33,850 nucleotides of DNA from Melioribacteraceae bacterium. GTDB lineage: Bacteria > Bacteroidota > Ignavibacteria > Ignavibacteriales > Melioribacteraceae. A model generated the notes under the pieces. It was not told the DNA's origin. It saw nothing but the letters and a program-made list of their open reading frames with translations, and did no database searches. Below, in pieces: positions 18,516 through 28,259 of this stretch (the stretch's first letter is position 1; each line of letters starts with the position of its first letter). The DNA lies in contig BQMY01000106.1 in the NCBI GenBank assembly GCA_022181065.1, positions 1 through 33,850 of the forward strand. The letters run 5' to 3'. The translations under genes were made by a program, and so were the position numbers.

Positions 18516-19463
18516 CTATTCTTCGTAGACACCCATTTTGGCGAATTTTTCAAGACGAAGATTTACAAGTTTATCAGATTTTATTTTTACAAGCGAATCC
18601 AATTCTTCGATCAAAATATTCTTTAGTGTGTTTGCTGTTTTCTGATGATCTTTATGCGCACCGCCAAGTGGTTCCGGTATTATCCTGTCAATAATTTTCA
18701 GTTTAAGTAGATCCGCCGCTGTCAATTTAAGAGCTTCAGCAGCTTGTTCTTTAAATTCCCAACTTCGCCACAAAATACTGGAGCAAGATTCCGGACTTAT
18801 AACAGAGTACCATGTATTCTCAAGCATCATAACCCTGTCGCCAACACCAATACCTAGCGCACCGCCACTGGCACCTTCACCAATCACAGTAACTATAATG
18901 GGTACTTTTAACCTGCTCATTTCGAGAAGATTACGCGCGATCGCTTCTGCTTGTCCGTTCTGTTCAGCCTCGAGTCCGGGGAATGCACCTGGTGTATCGA
19001 GCAAAGTGATTACCGGTTTATTATATTTTTCGGCAAGTTTCATTAGTCTTAAAGCTTTCCTGTAACCTTCAGGATTCGGCATACCAAAATTACGGTAGAG
19101 GTTGGATTTAGTATCGCGTCCTTTCTGATGCCCGATAATCATGACCTGGCGACCATCAATCGTCGCGAATCCACCAACGATAGCTTTGTCATCACCATAG
19201 TATCTGTCACCGTGAAGCTCAACATAATCATCGGTGATCATGTAGATATAATCGAGAGTGTAGGGACGCTCGGGATGACGTGCTAACTGGACACGCTGCC
19301 AACGTGACAGGTTTTGAAATACATTTTTTTTAAGCTGATAAACTTTATCTTCAAGTATTTTAATTTCTTCTTCAATTTGGAGTTTATCTTCGTACTTGCG
19401 CATTTCGGCTATTTTAGCTTCAAGCTCAATAATCGGCTTTTCAAAATCGAGTACGTTTTTCAT
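18516..19463 (-). CDS. accA: acetyl-CoA carboxylase carboxyltransferase subunit alpha
   Basis: With AccD this subunit transfers CO2 from carboxybiotin to acetyl-CoA, making malonyl-CoA for fatty-acid synthesis. The 315 residues match the family. Key parts are the N-terminal coiled helix, the crotonase-like core with [36 protein letters not shown], and the oxyanion-hole [15 protein letters not shown], then [11 protein letters not shown]. Its ATG (19463) overlaps the stop of the upstream glycosyltransferase gene by 4 bp, and its GGAGG site lies inside that gene's final codons, so translation is coupled. accD is not in the window. Confidence 0.96.
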
Positions 19464-21448
19464 TTTTCCTCCGGATTAAAAATCATTTTGCCAAGCGCTT
19501 TACCTAAAATTTCAAAATCCATCCACATATTCTGATTTCTGGCGTAAAAGATATTGAGTTTACCCGCTTCCTTTTCGTCAGACTGGTCAACGCCTTCGGT
19601 GTACCAGAATCCGGTCAGACCGGGTTTACCAAGGTAAAGCTCGTTATCAGCATGGATTTCAGCAGGTCCGACCAGGCTTTTCTTGCCGCTTAATACAGCC
19701 GGAATACCAAGAATGAATTTAGTTAAGTAACCTCTCTTTTTAGAGAGTTTAGCGGTCAAATATATAAAAGGAAAAATTAAAAGCAAAGTTGGCAGTGAAA
19801 TAAAAATATCCATTATCCTTTTCAGGATGCGCTGGGGGAGGGCGCTAATATTGTAACTGACTTTCAGGAGCGGTATATCTTCCAGCATAGTGATAGCGGA
19901 TTTCCCAACAAGAAAATCGTGTTCACTACCCGCAACAGAAAAATCAACATTTAACCCCTGGCATCTTGCGACGGTAATAAACATATCCTGAAAAGAAAGA
20001 TTATCGGAAGCAAAAATTACTCGGCTGATACTTTTTTCACTTATAATTTTACTGATATTACCGAGAGTACCAACAACACTAAAACCGTTTACTTTATTCC
20101 CTACTTCTTTTCCGGATAGCCCAATTAGACCTATAACATTATGTATATTGGATATATTCCCTTTAAGTCTTTCAGCAAGTTCGGCAGCCTTGGGAGAAGT
20201 ACCAACAACAAGAGTTTTGGTTTTTTTCAGGTTTTCGTCCAGCCCAATACGGAATATCAATTTTGCAAGAAACCTCCATAATGGTAGCGCTATCAAAAGG
20301 GAAGAGTAGGTAATCAGCATAACGGCACGGCTGAAGGCGTACTGCTTAAAGAAAAACGTAAACGCGGATATAAAAACAAATCCCCCGGTGAGCATAAGAG
20401 TAGCACGTAAAACCGAGAGCGACCGTTTTTTATAAACACCTGTTATTCCGAATATTAGAATCTGCAGAAGCGCAGGGAAAATATAGACCCAGGGTCGTGT
20501 GTACTCAGGAAACCCTCCTCGTTCCGCAAGGTACACATGTTCCGCGGTATAGAGAATTGTGTTAAAAAGAACAAAATCAGCGATGGTAGATAAGATAACG
20601 AGTCGGTACACATTCGAAAACGCGACCAGTTTTCTGAGAAAAATTGCAAACTGAAGTATCCATTCAACTATGAATGAAGATGAAAAATGCTTATGTACAA
20701 ATTTATGCATCGCGTCATAAAAGATGCGTGTTTCGTCGAGATTACTTCTTCGGGTGGACTCACCCTGATAGTGGATTATCTCGGTATTGTGCACATAATA
20801 GACGTTAAAACCGGCTTGCTGAGTCCGATAGCAAAGGTCGAGATCTTCACCATACATGAAAAATTCCGGATCGAAGCCGCCAATATTTTCATAAACTTCA
20901 CGTTTAAGAAACATAAACGCGCCGGAAATCGCGTCAACCTGATACGTCTGATTTTCATCAAGGTAGGTGAGGTTATAACGAGCAAATAACTTTGATTTGG
21001 GAAAGAGTTTACTCAATCCTGTAACTTTTGTAAAGGAGGTCCATGGACCGGGGAATCCACGTCTGCATGGTAATTGAAGCGTGCCATCCGGGTTGAGTAC
21101 CTTGCAGCCTGCCATACCGGCATCGGGGGTGGACTTAAAAAACTGAATCATTTTCTCAAGTGTATCTTCCCGAATTATAGTATCCGGATTGATAAGGAGT
21201 ATATACTTACCTTTTGAAAGTTCAAGTCCGAGATTGTTAGCCGCACCGAATCCGAGGTTCTTTTCACTCGCGATCAGCTTCACCCACTGATACTTTTCGC
21301 GCAATATTTCAACGCTCCCATCATCGGACGCGTTATCTATTACAATAACTTCTGTTTCAAGATTGTGGAAGGCCTTTTTCAGAGAATCGAGAAGGTTCTG
21401 AAGAAATTCCTTTACATTATAATTAACTATAATTACAGAGAGGTCCAT
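19460..21448 (-). CDS. GT2 glycosyltransferase fused to a degenerate polyprenyl phosphoglycosyltransferase
   Basis: A 662-residue two-part protein. Residues 1-245 are a rhamnosyltransferase-like GT2 domain ([26 protein letters not shown] at 84-90, EDLDLCYR at 201-208). About 280-400 carry several membrane helices, 410-530 form a Rossmann-like nucleotide-binding domain, and 538-655 resemble the C-terminal bacterial sugar-transferase domain (PF02397), with [18 protein letters not shown] (591-597), KPGLTGFW (608-615) and WMDFEILGK. The catalytic centre is missing: where the WcaJ paralogue at 22203-23606 has about 75 residues with KFRSM and the DE pair, this protein has only about 22 (569-590). 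The frame is open throughout, so this is not a simple frameshift. The GT2 half is probably active; the C-terminal half may be a membrane scaffold. Confidence 0.85.
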
Positions 21449-21457
21449 AAAACGCGG

Positions 21458-22177
21458 TTATTTTAGAATACCTAAAAGACTCCGAATACGCAGCTTCCAA
21501 ACCATTAAAACAGCCTCGCGGACAATCTTTTTCGACATTTTGGAGGTGCCTTGTACACGGTCTGTAAATACAATGGGGATCTCCCGAATTTTGAATCCTC
21601 TCTTCCATGCCTTGAAATTAATTTCAATCTGGAATGCATACCCGTTCGACCTGATATAGTTGAGATCAATTGATTCGAGAACAGCGCGACGCATACATTT
21701 AAACCCGCCGGTTGAATCCTGAATAGGTAAGCCTGTAATCACTTTAGTGTATTTATTCGCGAAATAGCTGAGAAGGAGTCGTTTCATCGGCCAGTTAATA
21801 ACATTTACACCCTGAATATAACGGCTGCCGATTACAAGATCATTTTTTTCGATTGCTTCGAGGAACATATTAATAACCTTTGGATCATGCGAAAAATCGG
21901 CATCCATTTGAATTGCGATATCATATTTGTTTTCAATCATAAAACGGAAACCGGCAACGTAAGCAGTACCCAATCCCATTTTACCGGCTCGACGAATAAT
22001 CTTCACTCGTGGATCCGATTTGCCATATTCTTCTACGAAATCGCCCGTTCCATCGGGGGAATTATCATCAACGATCAGTATGTCGAGATCAGGATATCTT
22101 CCGAGCAATTCGGGGATAAGTCTCCTGACGTTGGTCAACTCATTATATGTGGGTACTATTACAAGCGATTTCTTCAT
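21458..22177 (-). CDS. polyprenol monophosphomannose synthase-like glycosyltransferase (DPM1 family)
   Basis: A 239-residue GT2 enzyme with no membrane helix, matching the soluble DPM1 type that transfers a sugar (mannose in characterised members) from GDP-sugar to polyprenyl phosphate on the inner face of the membrane. Motifs are LVIVPTYNEL at the start, ILIVDDNSPDGTG, MDADFSHDP (the DxD metal site), GSRYIQGVNV, and DSTGGFKCMRR. It lies between wcaJ (25 bp) and the GT2/phosphoglycosyltransferase fusion (9 bp) on the same strand. It therefore probably supplies polyprenyl-linked sugar for the same glycan or for protein glycosylation. The actual sugar is not readable from the sequence. Confidence 0.88.
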   Translation of the reverse strand: MKKSLVIVPTYNELTNVRRLIPELLGRYPDLDILIVDDNSPDGTGDFVEEYGKSDPRVKIIRRAGKMGLGTAYVAGFRFMIENKYDIAIQMDADFSHDPKVINMFLEAIEKNDLVIGSRYIQGVNVINWPMKRLLLSYFANKYTKVITGLPIQDSTGGFKCMRRAVLESIDLNYIRSNGYAFQIEINFKAWKRGFKIREIPIVFTDRVQGTSKMSKKIVREAVLMVWKLRIRSLLGILK

Positions 22178-22202: not shown

Positions 22203-23606
22203 TTATTCGAAATGACCCTTACCTAATAATACAACGAAAATTGTTCTAAGTAAAATCTTTATGTCCATTCTGAGCGAGATATTTTCAATATAAAACAGGT
22301 CATAACGTAATTTGACCTTAACATCTTCTACATCTTCATCATATTTATGTTTCACCTGCGCCCAGCCCGTTACACCGGGTCTTACTTTAAGGCGGCGTTT
22401 GTATAACGGAATTTCCTCAGCAAGTTTCTCCACGAAATATGGTCTTTCGGGACGTGGACCAACCAGACTCATCTCTCCTTTCAGAACATTGTACATTTGC
22501 GGAATTTCGTCGATTCTTACTTTTCTGATAAATCTACCAACACGTGTAATCCGCGGATCATCTTTTACTGACCACATAGGACCCGATTTTTTTTCGGCAT
22601 CAGCGCGCATTGACCGGAATTTTACCATCTTGAATACTTTGCCATTTAATCCCGAACGTTCCTGCCGGAAAAATACTGGTCCGGGTGAATCAATCTTGAT
22701 CGCAATTGATGTAATAACGACGACCGGAAATGAAATAATGAGGATAATAAATGAGGCGATAATATCAAGGAGGCGCTTCATTTTCTTTTCCCATTCCGGC
22801 ATTAGCTGAGGCATTACATCAATAAGCGGAAAACCATATATCTGGGATGTTCTTGCCTGACCGCCAATAATATCGTAAAGGTCGGGTACAATTTTTATGC
22901 GAACATTTTTCTCGTCACTTTTGGCGATGACATTCATCATCACATCATCTTCATGTTTTTCCAGCGCGATTATAATTTCATGAATATCATATAGATCAAT
23001 AACTTTATCAATGTTTTTGAAAACATCAACAACTTTGATCCCCTTATATTCCTTATCGATGTTTTCTTCCTTAACGGCAACATACGCCACTACATCAAGC
23101 CCGAGCGCGGGATGAGTGTGAATTGTGTTGTGTATGTTGTTTGCTTTTGGGTTATACCCGATTATAACCGCGTTTCTTCTGCCGATACCTTTGATGAGAA
23201 GTCTTCGCTGAAAACTCCGGATAAGAACTCTTCCGGTACTGACAGTAAAGAGGAACAGACCCCAATAGACAAAGATGATAAATCTGTTTGTTGATGGAAC
23301 TTGCTGCCTGTAATCGTCAAACAGGATTATCGCGAACAGAATAAATATCCCTACGAATGATGATTTGAATAGTGTAGAAAGCTCATCAAACCGGGAAGAG
23401 GCAAACCATGTCCGGTACATCCCGACAAACATAAATATCATCATCCAGTACAGGTACGCGAATCCCATTGTAAGGAAAAAATCGGGGCTGGTGATCATTG
23501 TAAACCATCCCGTTTCTACCCTGAGGTAAAAGAAGAGCATCCACGCCAGATTGATCGTAAGGAAATCAATCGTAAGGACTAATATTTTTTCAATTTTTCT
23601 GTTCAA
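22203..23606 (-). CDS. undecaprenyl-phosphate sugar phosphotransferase, WcaJ type
   Basis: A 467-residue polytopic phosphoglycosyltransferase that starts glycan synthesis by moving a sugar-phosphate from a nucleotide sugar to undecaprenyl phosphate. Four or five N-terminal helices (about 10-125) are followed by a Rossmann-like domain (145-270), a membrane re-entrant helix (about 278-302) and the catalytic domain: KFRSM (329-333), the DE pair (D366, E367), SLVGPRPE (380-387) and RPGVTGWAQV (409-418). All key residues are intact. The start appears to be TTG at 23606 with a TATAAT/TAATTTTG box 19-28 bp before it and no Shine-Dalgarno; an internal start is possible but would remove part of the first helix. 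It probably heads the glycan genes downstream. Confidence 0.9.
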   Translation of the reverse strand: MNRKIEKILVLTIDFLTINLAWMLFFYLRVETGWFTMITSPDFFLTMGFAYLYWMMIFMFVGMYRTWFASSRFDELSTLFKSSFVGIFILFAIILFDDYRQQVPSTNRFIIFVYWGLFLFTVSTGRVLIRSFQRRLLIKGIGRRNAVIIGYNPKANNIHNTIHTHPALGLDVVAYVAVKEENIDKEYKGIKVVDVFKNIDKVIDLYDIHEIIIALEKHEDDVMMNVIAKSDEKNVRIKIVPDLYDIIGGQARTSQIYGFPLIDVMPQLMPEWEKKMKRLLDIIASFIILIISFPVVVITSIAIKIDSPGPVFFRQERSGLNGKVFKMVKFRSMRADAEKKSGPMWSVKDDPRITRVGRFIRKVRIDEIPQMYNVLKGEMSLVGPRPERPYFVEKLAEEIPLYKRRLKVRPGVTGWAQVKHKYDEDVEDVKVKLRYDLFYIENISLRMDIKILLRTIFVVLLGKGHFE

Positions 23607-26284: not shown

Positions 26285-26288
26285 CTAT
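26219..26288. repeat. perfect tandem heptamer array, (CGACTAT) x10
   Basis: Ten exact copies of CGACTAT fill 70 bp. The stop codon TAG of the minus-strand glycoside hydrolase gene (plus-strand CTA at 26285-26287) lies inside the last unit. Perfect short repeats of this kind vary in copy number by slippage. A change would not alter the protein, because the stop comes in the first unit reached by the ribosome. Confidence 0.95.
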
Positions 26289-28177
26289 TTCATTAGAAGC
26301 ATTTTACCGGAATGTTGTTTAGCCGGTGTGGAGATAACATAAACATAAATTCCCGAGGTTAGATTTTCAGAGTGAAATTTGATTGTTTGTTCACCAACAG
26401 AGTAAAAATCATCGGTAATAGTTTTTATTCTTCTTCCGAGAATATCATATATCTCTACTTTTATATTTTGCTGTATATCGTTGTAAAACTTTATAGTTGT
26501 TGAAGGATTAAATGGATTTGGATAGCAGGGATATACTTCGAATGCGTTTGGAACGATTACGGTCTCATTTTCATTAGTTCCGGTCATTATAACTTCGGGC
26601 GATAATTTTCTGTTTACTGTCAACATTATCGCGTCAGCCATCAAGATATCACCGGAAGAGAGATAACTATTGTCAAGAGACGCAACAGAAAATGAGGCTG
26701 ATGAATCAAAATATTCGGTGCCCACTAAAGTCCACCCGCTATTGCTATTTGATGATTGATCAAAAATTATTTCTGTCGGATTAGCGGATTCCGGTTTTAA
26801 TACAAATCTCGCGGAATCAGTAAAGTTGAATGATGGTGAATTGTGGAAGTAAACGTTGTACCAAGCTGATTCTTTAATTTTCGAATGATAGGTCAGCGAG
26901 GAGAAACTATCCGGATCATTGAGCGTATAAACCGAGCCGCCATATCCGGGACCCGAAAAAACTTCCCAATTTCCTGATATTGTATTTCCTTCCCGGTTTT
27001 CATCCGAGATATATGCTTTAGGTCTTCTTGCGCCATTTCTGCCTGGCACGAGCGCAAAGTCTTTGTAGTAAGTAGCGAGAAGAGTATCGCCCAACTGATC
27101 ATTGTTTTTTCTTAACCCTTCATAATAGAAAAACGCTTCGCCCATAACATTTCTGTCACGGTTTGCCTTCATAGCTTTCTTCAGGTAGTCGGGAGTCATT
27201 ACATACGCGTTTGAACCCGTGCCGATATTCATAAGAATGGCGGAGAAAAATCTGTCACGTTTTGCCACTGGCACATACGATAGGGCGATATTCAGTTCGT
27301 ACAAATATTCGTTGAAAGTATAGCGATAGAGCTGTGGAATAATATGATCCACAATGTCTTCATCAACCCAGGTTTTGGAGTCTTGCAGATAGTTATCATA
27401 AGCCCACGGATATATACTTGGTGAAGAGGAGACGAACAGATTAGGGTCGTGATCTTTAACGAGGTTTTTAACATCAACATACCATTCGTTCATTTTGTCA
27501 GCGCGCCATCTTTTCCAGGCTGCGTTGGTGTAGTCGGTAGGTGGGGCAGCATCGTTATGTTCCGCTTTGTAAATCGCTACTGTTGTGCTATCGTAGCCAC
27601 CTTCAATCGGCAACGCCGGTATCCTGTCGGAAAACTCAACACCGTCAACATCGTAATTTATGATTACTTCTTCAACGAGTGAATTAATGAAATCCTGAAC
27701 ATCCGGATTTATTGCGTTCATCCAGTCGAAACCATTCTTTGTGCATATATTTCCGTCTTGTGTCCTGAGAGCCCAATCGGGAAATTTTTGGAGAATGTGT
27801 CCACCGAATGGGGGTGTACCACCGGAATACCATGCCGCGAACCCGTATTCGAACCAGGGGAGTACCTCAATTCCGTTTTTGTGTGCTTCAATAATTAATC
27901 GTTTGAGTGGGTCTCTACCGGTAAATTTCGGATTGATTTTGGTACCGAATAGAGATTCCATAGTTTCACTTGGGAAATTAGTATAACCACCATTCCAGAC
28001 TACAGGTAGAATCACATTTACATTTATTGACGCAAGATAATCCATCGCCTTCGCGATGTTGGCATCACAGAACATTACATAACTGTCAACATCTGTAATT
28101 TTAACAGCGCGAAATTCTTCCAATGGTTGGGAAAGGAGTAGAGTACTGAGTAAGAGGGATAACAATAAAGATTTCAT
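26285..28177 (-). CDS. secreted GHL10-type glycoside hydrolase with T9SS-type sorting domain
   Basis: A 630-residue exported protein. The signal peptide is about 1-16 (MKSLLLSLLLSTLLLS). Residues about 20-370 resemble the GHL10/DUF187 family of TIM-barrel glycoside hydrolases: NVNVILPVVWNGG, PLKRLIIEAHKNGIEVLPWF, DWALRTQDG, NPDVQDFINSLV, YDVDGVEFSD and DHIIPQLYRY. A golvesin-like or carbohydrate-binding beta domain (about 390-535) follows. The last 87 residues (544-630) are a type A secretion/sorting domain with YPCYPNPFNPSTTIKF, IYDILGRRI and GIYVYVI, which would route it to the cell surface. The start at 28177 opens directly into the signal peptide; a longer reading to 28234 adds 19 residues. 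The natural polysaccharide is unknown. The gene appears monocistronic. Confidence 0.85.
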   Translation of the reverse strand: MKSLLLSLLLSTLLLSQPLEEFRAVKITDVDSYVMFCDANIAKAMDYLASINVNVILPVVWNGGYTNFPSETMESLFGTKINPKFTGRDPLKRLIIEAHKNGIEVLPWFEYGFAAWYSGGTPPFGGHILQKFPDWALRTQDGNICTKNGFDWMNAINPDVQDFINSLVEEVIINYDVDGVEFSDRIPALPIEGGYDSTTVAIYKAEHNDAAPPTDYTNAAWKRWRADKMNEWYVDVKNLVKDHDPNLFVSSSPSIYPWAYDNYLQDSKTWVDEDIVDHIIPQLYRYTFNEYLYELNIALSYVPVAKRDRFFSAILMNIGTGSNAYVMTPDYLKKAMKANRDRNVMGEAFFYYEGLRKNNDQLGDTLLATYYKDFALVPGRNGARRPKAYISDENREGNTISGNWEVFSGPGYGGSVYTLNDPDSFSSLTYHSKIKESAWYNVYFHNSPSFNFTDSARFVLKPESANPTEIIFDQSSNSNSGWTLVGTEYFDSSASFSVASLDNSYLSSGDILMADAIMLTVNRKLSPEVIMTGTNENETVIVPNAFEVYPCYPNPFNPSTTIKFYNDIQQNIKVEIYDILGRRIKTITDDFYSVGEQTIKFHSENLTSGIYVYVISTPAKQHSGKMLLMK

Positions 28178-28259
28178 ATAGCCACTTTTAATTAATAGTA
28201 GCTGAAAATTTGTCAATTTTTCCTCTAATAACAACTACACAAAAAGGTAGAAAATATTA

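Follow-up and report, generated by a model that had tools for sequence, protein, structure and literature searches.

The locus analysed here raises the question of why a glycosyltransferase should carry, on the same polypeptide chain, a phosphoglycosyltransferase (PGT) domain that has lost its catalytic core. The window, by which we mean the whole stretch of 33,850 nucleotides that was analysed from a Melioribacteraceae bacterium, contains an open reading frame of 662 amino acids with an ATG start at 19460..21448 on the minus strand, delimited by its coordinates and translation, by Pfam matches and by relatives in other genomes. An initial annotation, which gave no strand, had described it as a family 2 glycosyltransferase (GT2) fused to a core-less PGT; the coordinates fit, and Pfam and Foldseek agree with the description. 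The match of the fusion to the PGT family is beyond chance, as judged by the Pfam cut-offs passed, a Foldseek match to WbaP and the presence of orthologues in many genomes.

The domains of the fusion, all on the minus strand, follow each other from a soluble enzyme to a PGT remnant. The GT2 (GT-A) domain occupies residues 1-235 (20744..21448) and is supported by Pfam (PF00535, Glycos_transf_2, residues 4-189, 93.6 bits), by fold matches over residues 1-274 and by the motifs N87 P88 D89 and E201 D202, which are invariant in 32 homologues. The PF00535 domain, the GT-A fold and the NPD and ED motifs are class features of GT2 enzymes; the invariance of the two motifs suggests that the fusion is probably an active glycosyltransferase. 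Residues 283-400 (20249..20602) form a putative transmembrane helix bundle, seen as helices in the AF2 models and in the match to WbaP, and are followed by a Rossmann-like DUF at residues about 405-505 (19934..20236), recognised by Pfam (PF13727, CoA_binding_3, residues 341-482, 31.3 bits against a cut-off of 25) and by a match to 3nkl_A (Z 13.9, 3.3 Å, 113 residues). The segment past the DUF (residues 506-535, 19844..19933) is equivalent in position to the dimer hairpin of WbaP, is well conserved and has strands at residues 519-522 and 525-530 in the whole-protein model. A re-entrant membrane helix with KRxxD (residues 536-570, 19739..19843; alignment, AF2 model and superposition) leads into a deletion scar with the remnant of the catalytic helix (residues 571-588, 19685..19738). 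The retained C-terminal PGT part (residues 589-657, 19478..19684) is supported by Pfam, conservation and superposition on PglC, where Bac_transf (PF02397) matches residues 584-656 with 39.5 bits against a cut-off of 27, and does so with its C-terminal half only (profile positions 96-178 of 179). The KRxxD re-entrant helix, SLVG and PGxTG are all present in the window protein, in its sequence and in aligned columns.

Structure prediction likewise gave a C-terminal half resembling WbaP and PglC. The whole-protein AF2 model (pLDDT 80.4, pTM 0.60) yielded PDB fold matches that cover residues 1-274 only, led by GalNAc-T2 (Z 23.1), WrtF (21.8) and RmlT (20.5), and the C-terminal half was therefore folded alone. 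The best Foldseek match of the resulting model of residues 283-662 (pLDDT 77.9, pTM 0.54) was WbaP (8t53_A, E 1.4e-10), with Z 12.7 over 310 residues and an rmsd of 15.3 Å, a value that implies that the domains are arranged differently in the model and in WbaP; the pTM values of 0.54-0.60 also make the domain arrangement uncertain. Residues 535-658 superpose on PglC (8g1n) with Z 10.5 and 3.2 Å over 121 residues. Since a Z below about 13 between helical structures can reflect a common arrangement, the PglC match has to be read together with the sequence evidence. Pfam, NCBIfam, the Foldseek match and the superposition together rule out a C-terminal part of another family, and the assignment to PGTs made in the initial annotation stands.

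The extent of the loss was measured against the intact WcaJ-type PGT of 467 amino acids that, as had been noted, is encoded two genes upstream (22203..23606, minus strand; Pfam and NCBIfam) and that matches Bac_transf over profile positions 1-178 with 241 bits. Counted from the Lys of KRxxD to the Ser of SLVG, the fusion has 48 residues and the WcaJ of the window 103, so that 55 are missing, nearly the same difference as in the earlier estimate of about 22 against about 75. In the alignment with WcaJ, the deletion starts at SPG and extends past KFRSM. Both this motif and the Asp-Glu dyad had been reported as missing, and this can be refined: the KFRSM stretch is deleted, and the helix that bears the dyad is still recognisable (an 18-letter remnant aligned with RIDEIPQMYNVLKGEMSLVGP), other residues standing in place of the Asp and the Glu. 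The fusion family does not conserve the Arg or the Glu of GPRPE either.

The same loss is found throughout the family. A set of 189 members, not a random sample, was collected, and 181 remained after eight identical ones had been dropped; in 159 of these the profile match reaches position 600, in the C-terminal PGT part, and these long members were aligned with 60 WcaJ rows. The Asp-Glu dyad occurs in 0/159 distinct long members and in 59/59 true WcaJ neighbours, which served as the control (59 rather than 60 because the WcaJ row of one locus, L045, was the fusion itself). A lone dyad residue is present in seven of the long members, as Asp in one (L189) and as Glu in six, all from Neomarinimicrobiota (L042, L046, L293, L300, L304 and L305), in which RELP, REMP or HELL stands on the helix in place of the DEIP of WcaJ and the Asp is gone. 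The 22 rows with profile matches short of position 600, which are short or cut forms, were assessed by motif scan, L131 and L047 excepted; the dyad count itself rests on aligned columns, as the scan patterns are narrow and would miss a variant such as DEAP (seen in G642). No homologue combining this GT2 with an intact core was found among the members examined, with other phyla reached by one pattern-based scan.

Several candidates for such a homologue proved to be something else. The apparent fusions in G039 and G053 (28% and 26% over 1-566, interrupted by a stop) each resolve into a GT2 gene and a separate wcaJ gene. The long frame of G642 (846 amino acids) consists of a WecA-like half and an intact WcaJ half and has no GT2 domain. 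Long frames in G286, G613, G624 and G652 all carry dead fusions, a 'RINEFP' match in L317 (G595) lies at residue 462 of 692, inside the DUF, and L074 (794 amino acids) has two GT2 stretches and no PGT. As a side observation, L315:842-3382 and L172:8820-11306 encode a WecA-like polytopic transferase (PF00953) joined to a complete WcaJ-type PGT (PF13727, PF02397), giving chains of 846 and 828 amino acids with two initiating enzymes each.

A match to the fusion was found in 58/58 relatives, at full length in 54; of the other four, two are cut at contig ends (G018 and G025), one is a diverged fragment (G033) and one has a weak GT2 match (G043). A private deletion or assembly error is ruled out, as the aligned orthologues share the loss, in an alignment that left out seven loci without a full-length match, including L132 (G033; diverged, at a contig edge). 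A profile built from 32 members matches 277 of 395 sampled genomes of the phylum at E 1e-60, short forms and GT2 paralogues being counted too; the search was therefore repeated at E 1e-120, where 170/395 match and where short forms and long forms with split scores, such as that of G060, are missed. At this stricter threshold 94/98 genomes of the window's own class match, so that the long form is general there and patchier outside, several families (f22, f26, f27 and f30 among them) giving no match. In another class, that of G109, a short-form query at 1e-50 matches 127 of 149 genomes, with 117 of the matches in frames of at least 600 amino acids, four in frames of 397-405 and six in short frames or frames at contig ends. 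In the phylum to which the Neomarinimicrobiota locus L046 belongs, 101 of 120 genomes match the profile at 1e-60; 87 of the matching rows start at profile position 4 or before and extend to at least position 640.

A tree of the GT2 domains places 179 of the 181 members (long, short and GT2-only) opposite all 27 paralogues (24 drawn randomly from 43, plus three named loci) with a support of 0.996; the two that fall outside the family are L233 and L234. All 21 Neomarinimicrobiota members group together, with no other sequence among them (support 0.924). A single family of this kind favours loss of the catalytic core before the sampled lineages split, early transfer being another possible route; the loss thus probably predates the divergence of the Bacteroidota and Neomarinimicrobiota lineages sampled. 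A contig binned as Desulfobulbaceae (L047:5539-8888) also carries the wcaJ-dpm-fusion order. It is probably a mis-binned Ignavibacteria contig, as the identities of its wcaJ and dpm equal those of L048 (Ignavibacteriae), and gives no evidence of spread.

As the dead part is widespread in two large bacterial groups, it probably has a second job, such as holding, pairing or regulating a living partner. The reading that we favour, with a confidence somewhat above even, is of an old GT2-PGT fusion whose core was lost and whose PGT half is kept as a membrane-anchoring, probably dimerising and possibly sensing module: the retained half corresponds to the membrane, dimer and nucleotide part of WbaP, and the lost part to the maker of lipid-PP-sugar. 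An ancestral GT2 would have been fused to a large monotopic PGT, which then lost its catalytic core. The GT2 domain would still be active and add a sugar to a polyprenyl-linked acceptor, and the pseudo-PGT (helix bundle, DUF, re-entrant helix and C-terminal motifs), presumably no longer able to make lipid-PP-sugar, would anchor the enzyme at the inner membrane. The DUF and hairpin would pair two copies as in WbaP, and the pseudo-PGT may in addition keep the lipid-linked acceptor in place or act as a sensor of uridine nucleotides, thereby tuning the GT2. In the parts of the sources consulted, large PGTs are described as dimers (PMC10942596; PMC12802240), most of the WbaP dimer interface is assigned to the DUF and hairpin, and the WbaP DUF is stabilised by UMP, UDP and UTP (PMC10942596). 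For EpsZ, a large PGT whose model lacks the hairpin, stable dimerisation is there proposed to require a partner (PMC12802240), a proposal that supports regulatory roles for accessory PGT domains.

The initial annotation had also supposed that the dead domain is kept, a point borne out by the long members that retain it without its dyad and by the selection on it. In the dead segment (residues 536-657), dN/dS (Nei-Gojobori) is 0.044-0.165 in 12 close pairs with dS below 1.5 there, several of which share a genus and are not independent; of the 16 close pairs analysed, four were left out of this range because their dS in the segment exceeds 1.5 or is saturated. The dead segment is thus under purifying selection. 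K543, D547, S591, G594, G610, Y635 and D644 are invariant in the 32 homologues, down to 32% identity, and in the 159-member set the matching columns hold K in 147, D in 150, S in 128 and G in 156. Against the favoured reading, 11 of the 12 pairs have a higher dN/dS in the dead segment than in the GT2 domain (GT2 0.011-0.072, three with saturated dS); in the near-identical pair L290/L288 the GT2 value is the higher one (0.186 vs 0.136). Mean pairwise identity among 57 orthologues of the order is 0.72 in the GT2 domain, 0.61 in the linker (residues 236-282) and 0.59 in the hairpin segment, which ranks third, and lies at 0.35-0.55 in the rest of the PGT half: 0.55 in the C-terminal part, 0.44 in the transmembrane bundle, 0.42 in the DUF, 0.36 in the scar and 0.35 in the re-entrant helix. 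The weak conservation of the DUF and the re-entrant helix, and the absence of the dead part in some lineages, also count against the favoured reading.

These same observations speak for a slowly decaying vestige, in which the PGT part would be a mere membrane anchor, inherited and being lost stepwise. Erosion is indeed graded. The remnant between KRxxD and SLVG ranges from 35 to 76 residues in the 159 long members (48 in the window), the longest being found in L192-L195 and in the Neomarinimicrobiota loci; short members (L220-L228 and L257-L259, partly the same genes) have 388-428 amino acids, a GT2 domain with a short tail; and one gene (L232/L256), adjoining recR, encodes a GT2 alone. The dead part is thus dispensable in some lineages, where it has eroded further, to GT2 alone. 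The tail of the L220-L228 forms weakly matches the DUF and hairpin, the domain E-value falling below 1e-3 only in L225 and L258. We regard simple decay as unlikely overall, as the dN/dS of the dead segment, albeit higher than that of GT2, is still just 0.044-0.165, invariant motifs flank the lost core and the profile reaches the C-terminal PGT part in 159/181 distinct members of the (non-random) sample. The series of long remnant, scar, DUF-like tail and GT2 only also allows it to be asked which piece matters. Of the 27 long loci L260-L286, 18 encode RecR in their flank, and in some short-form loci the fusion gene adjoins a gene (c7) whose sequence looks like that of a 2-oxo acid dehydrogenase E2.

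The genomic context bears on a second alternative, in which the dead half is a pseudoenzyme partner that forms a hetero-oligomer with the intact WcaJ, regulating it and bringing a second sugar transferase to the first. In the window, the fusion lies between a GT2 of 239 amino acids (21458..22177, minus strand; Pfam and NCBIfam), DPM-like by a name drawn from its NCBIfam neighbours, and accA (18516..19463, minus strand; Pfam and NCBIfam). Neighbours were counted when on the same strand and within 3 kb, at loci with enough flank, with wcaJ required to have at least 36% identity. Within the order, the counts near the fusion are 52/53 for wcaJ, 57/57 for dpm and 54/55 for accA, and the proximity of wcaJ, together with the dimerisation of large PGTs cited above, favours the partnership. 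Against it, most loci of the wider sets have no wcaJ close to the fusion, the counts of loci with wcaJ being 13/25 in the same class with named distant loci (dpm 17/26, accA 25/26), 0/2 in named Neomarinimicrobiota loci (dpm 3/3, accA 3/3), 6/19 in other classes (dpm 6/19, accA 10/21) and 0/18 in a further locus set (dpm 1/18, accA 5/18). Moreover, 5 of 25 genomes (G549, G592, G624, G627 and G649; assemblies of 1.2-1.9 Mb, completeness unstated) have no full-length Bac_transf match. The link between fusion and wcaJ is strong in the window's order only, and as wcaJ is often absent and accA commoner outside the order, the partnership is weakened but not refuted; we consider it rather improbable. 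Of the two roles first suggested for the dead domain, that of a membrane scaffold therefore fits the data, and that of a regulatory partner for the intact WcaJ is unsupported.

The most persistent neighbour is accA, which is commoner than wcaJ outside the order, yet absent in most of the 18-locus set. Its ATG overlaps the stop codon of the fusion by 4 nt (ATGA at 19460-19463), with GGAGG just ahead, and from this arrangement the fusion, a sugar transferase, is probably translationally coupled to accA, a fatty-acid enzyme. Elsewhere in the window, 26285-28234 encodes a GHL10 glycoside-hydrolase-like protein with a Por_Secre_tail (T9SS sorting tail) and a Golvesin_C domain (Pfam).

A broader and distinctly doubtful extension would give the fusion a widespread housekeeping role in Bacteroidota and Neomarinimicrobiota: together with the DPM-like GT2 it would build a phylum-wide glycan, for example the Hex-dHex O-glycan core, the pseudo-PGT acting as a nucleotide-sensing, dimerising throttle. 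The DPM-like GT2 adjoins the fusion in many lineages. As far as the consulted parts of the sources go, the protein O-glycan of Bacteroidota has a conserved Hex-dHex core; the responsible glycosyltransferases are described as unknown in Tannerella forsythia (PMC8729774), and the genes for the O-glycan machinery are placed at other genomic sites, away from the known locus (PMC12871550). A search for a Porphyromonas counterpart of the fusion was without result. The idea that the remnant is still catalytic through residues outside the dyad, in another group transfer or in lipid-PP-sugar hydrolysis, finds some encouragement in the several flanking PGT residues that are kept and in the dyad Glu of six Neomarinimicrobiota members, and is highly improbable given the replacement of the dyad Asp, the loss of KFRSM and the lack of conservation at the Arg and Glu positions of GPRPE, and given that 0/18 scar columns reach 95% conservation in the order.

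The favoured reading, an anchoring and probably dimerising pseudo-PGT, would add a widespread pseudoenzyme to glycan assembly, in which the PGT fold is retained for a non-chemical role. The fusion separates the structural and sensory roles of PGT accessory domains, under study in WbaP and EpsZ, from catalysis, and flags a broadly conserved glycosyltransferase in a phylum with incompletely known core glycan enzymes. A similarity-network study (PNAS 2021) reportedly dealt with monotopic PGT fusions. A search of titles and abstract openings in the open-access literature gave no description of a GT2 fused to a dead PGT.

Among known systems, the fusion shares with the large monotopic PGTs (WbaP, WcaJ and EpsZ; TIGR03025, PF13727 + PF02397) the transmembrane bundle, the DUF with its hairpin, the KRxxD helix, SLVG and PGxTG. 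Unlike them, it lacks KFRSM, the Asp-Glu dyad and GPRPE, has 55 residues fewer, carries an N-terminal GT2 and stays below the TIGR03025 cut-off (best match at residues 290-567, 128.5 bits against 295.55). Like the rhamnosyl- and fucosyltransferases RmlT and WrtF (TIGR01556), it has a GT-A fold in residues 1-274, whereas it scores below the TIGR01556 cut-off (64.7 bits against 200.55) and has a membrane pseudo-PGT attached. Monotopic PGT fusions are already known as a class, the Bi-PGTs, in which, according to the part of the source consulted, a monotopic PGT is joined to another functional domain (PMC10942596), as it is here; the fusion differs from them in that its PGT half has a large-PGT architecture and no catalytic residues, and the definition of Bi-PGTs sets it apart.
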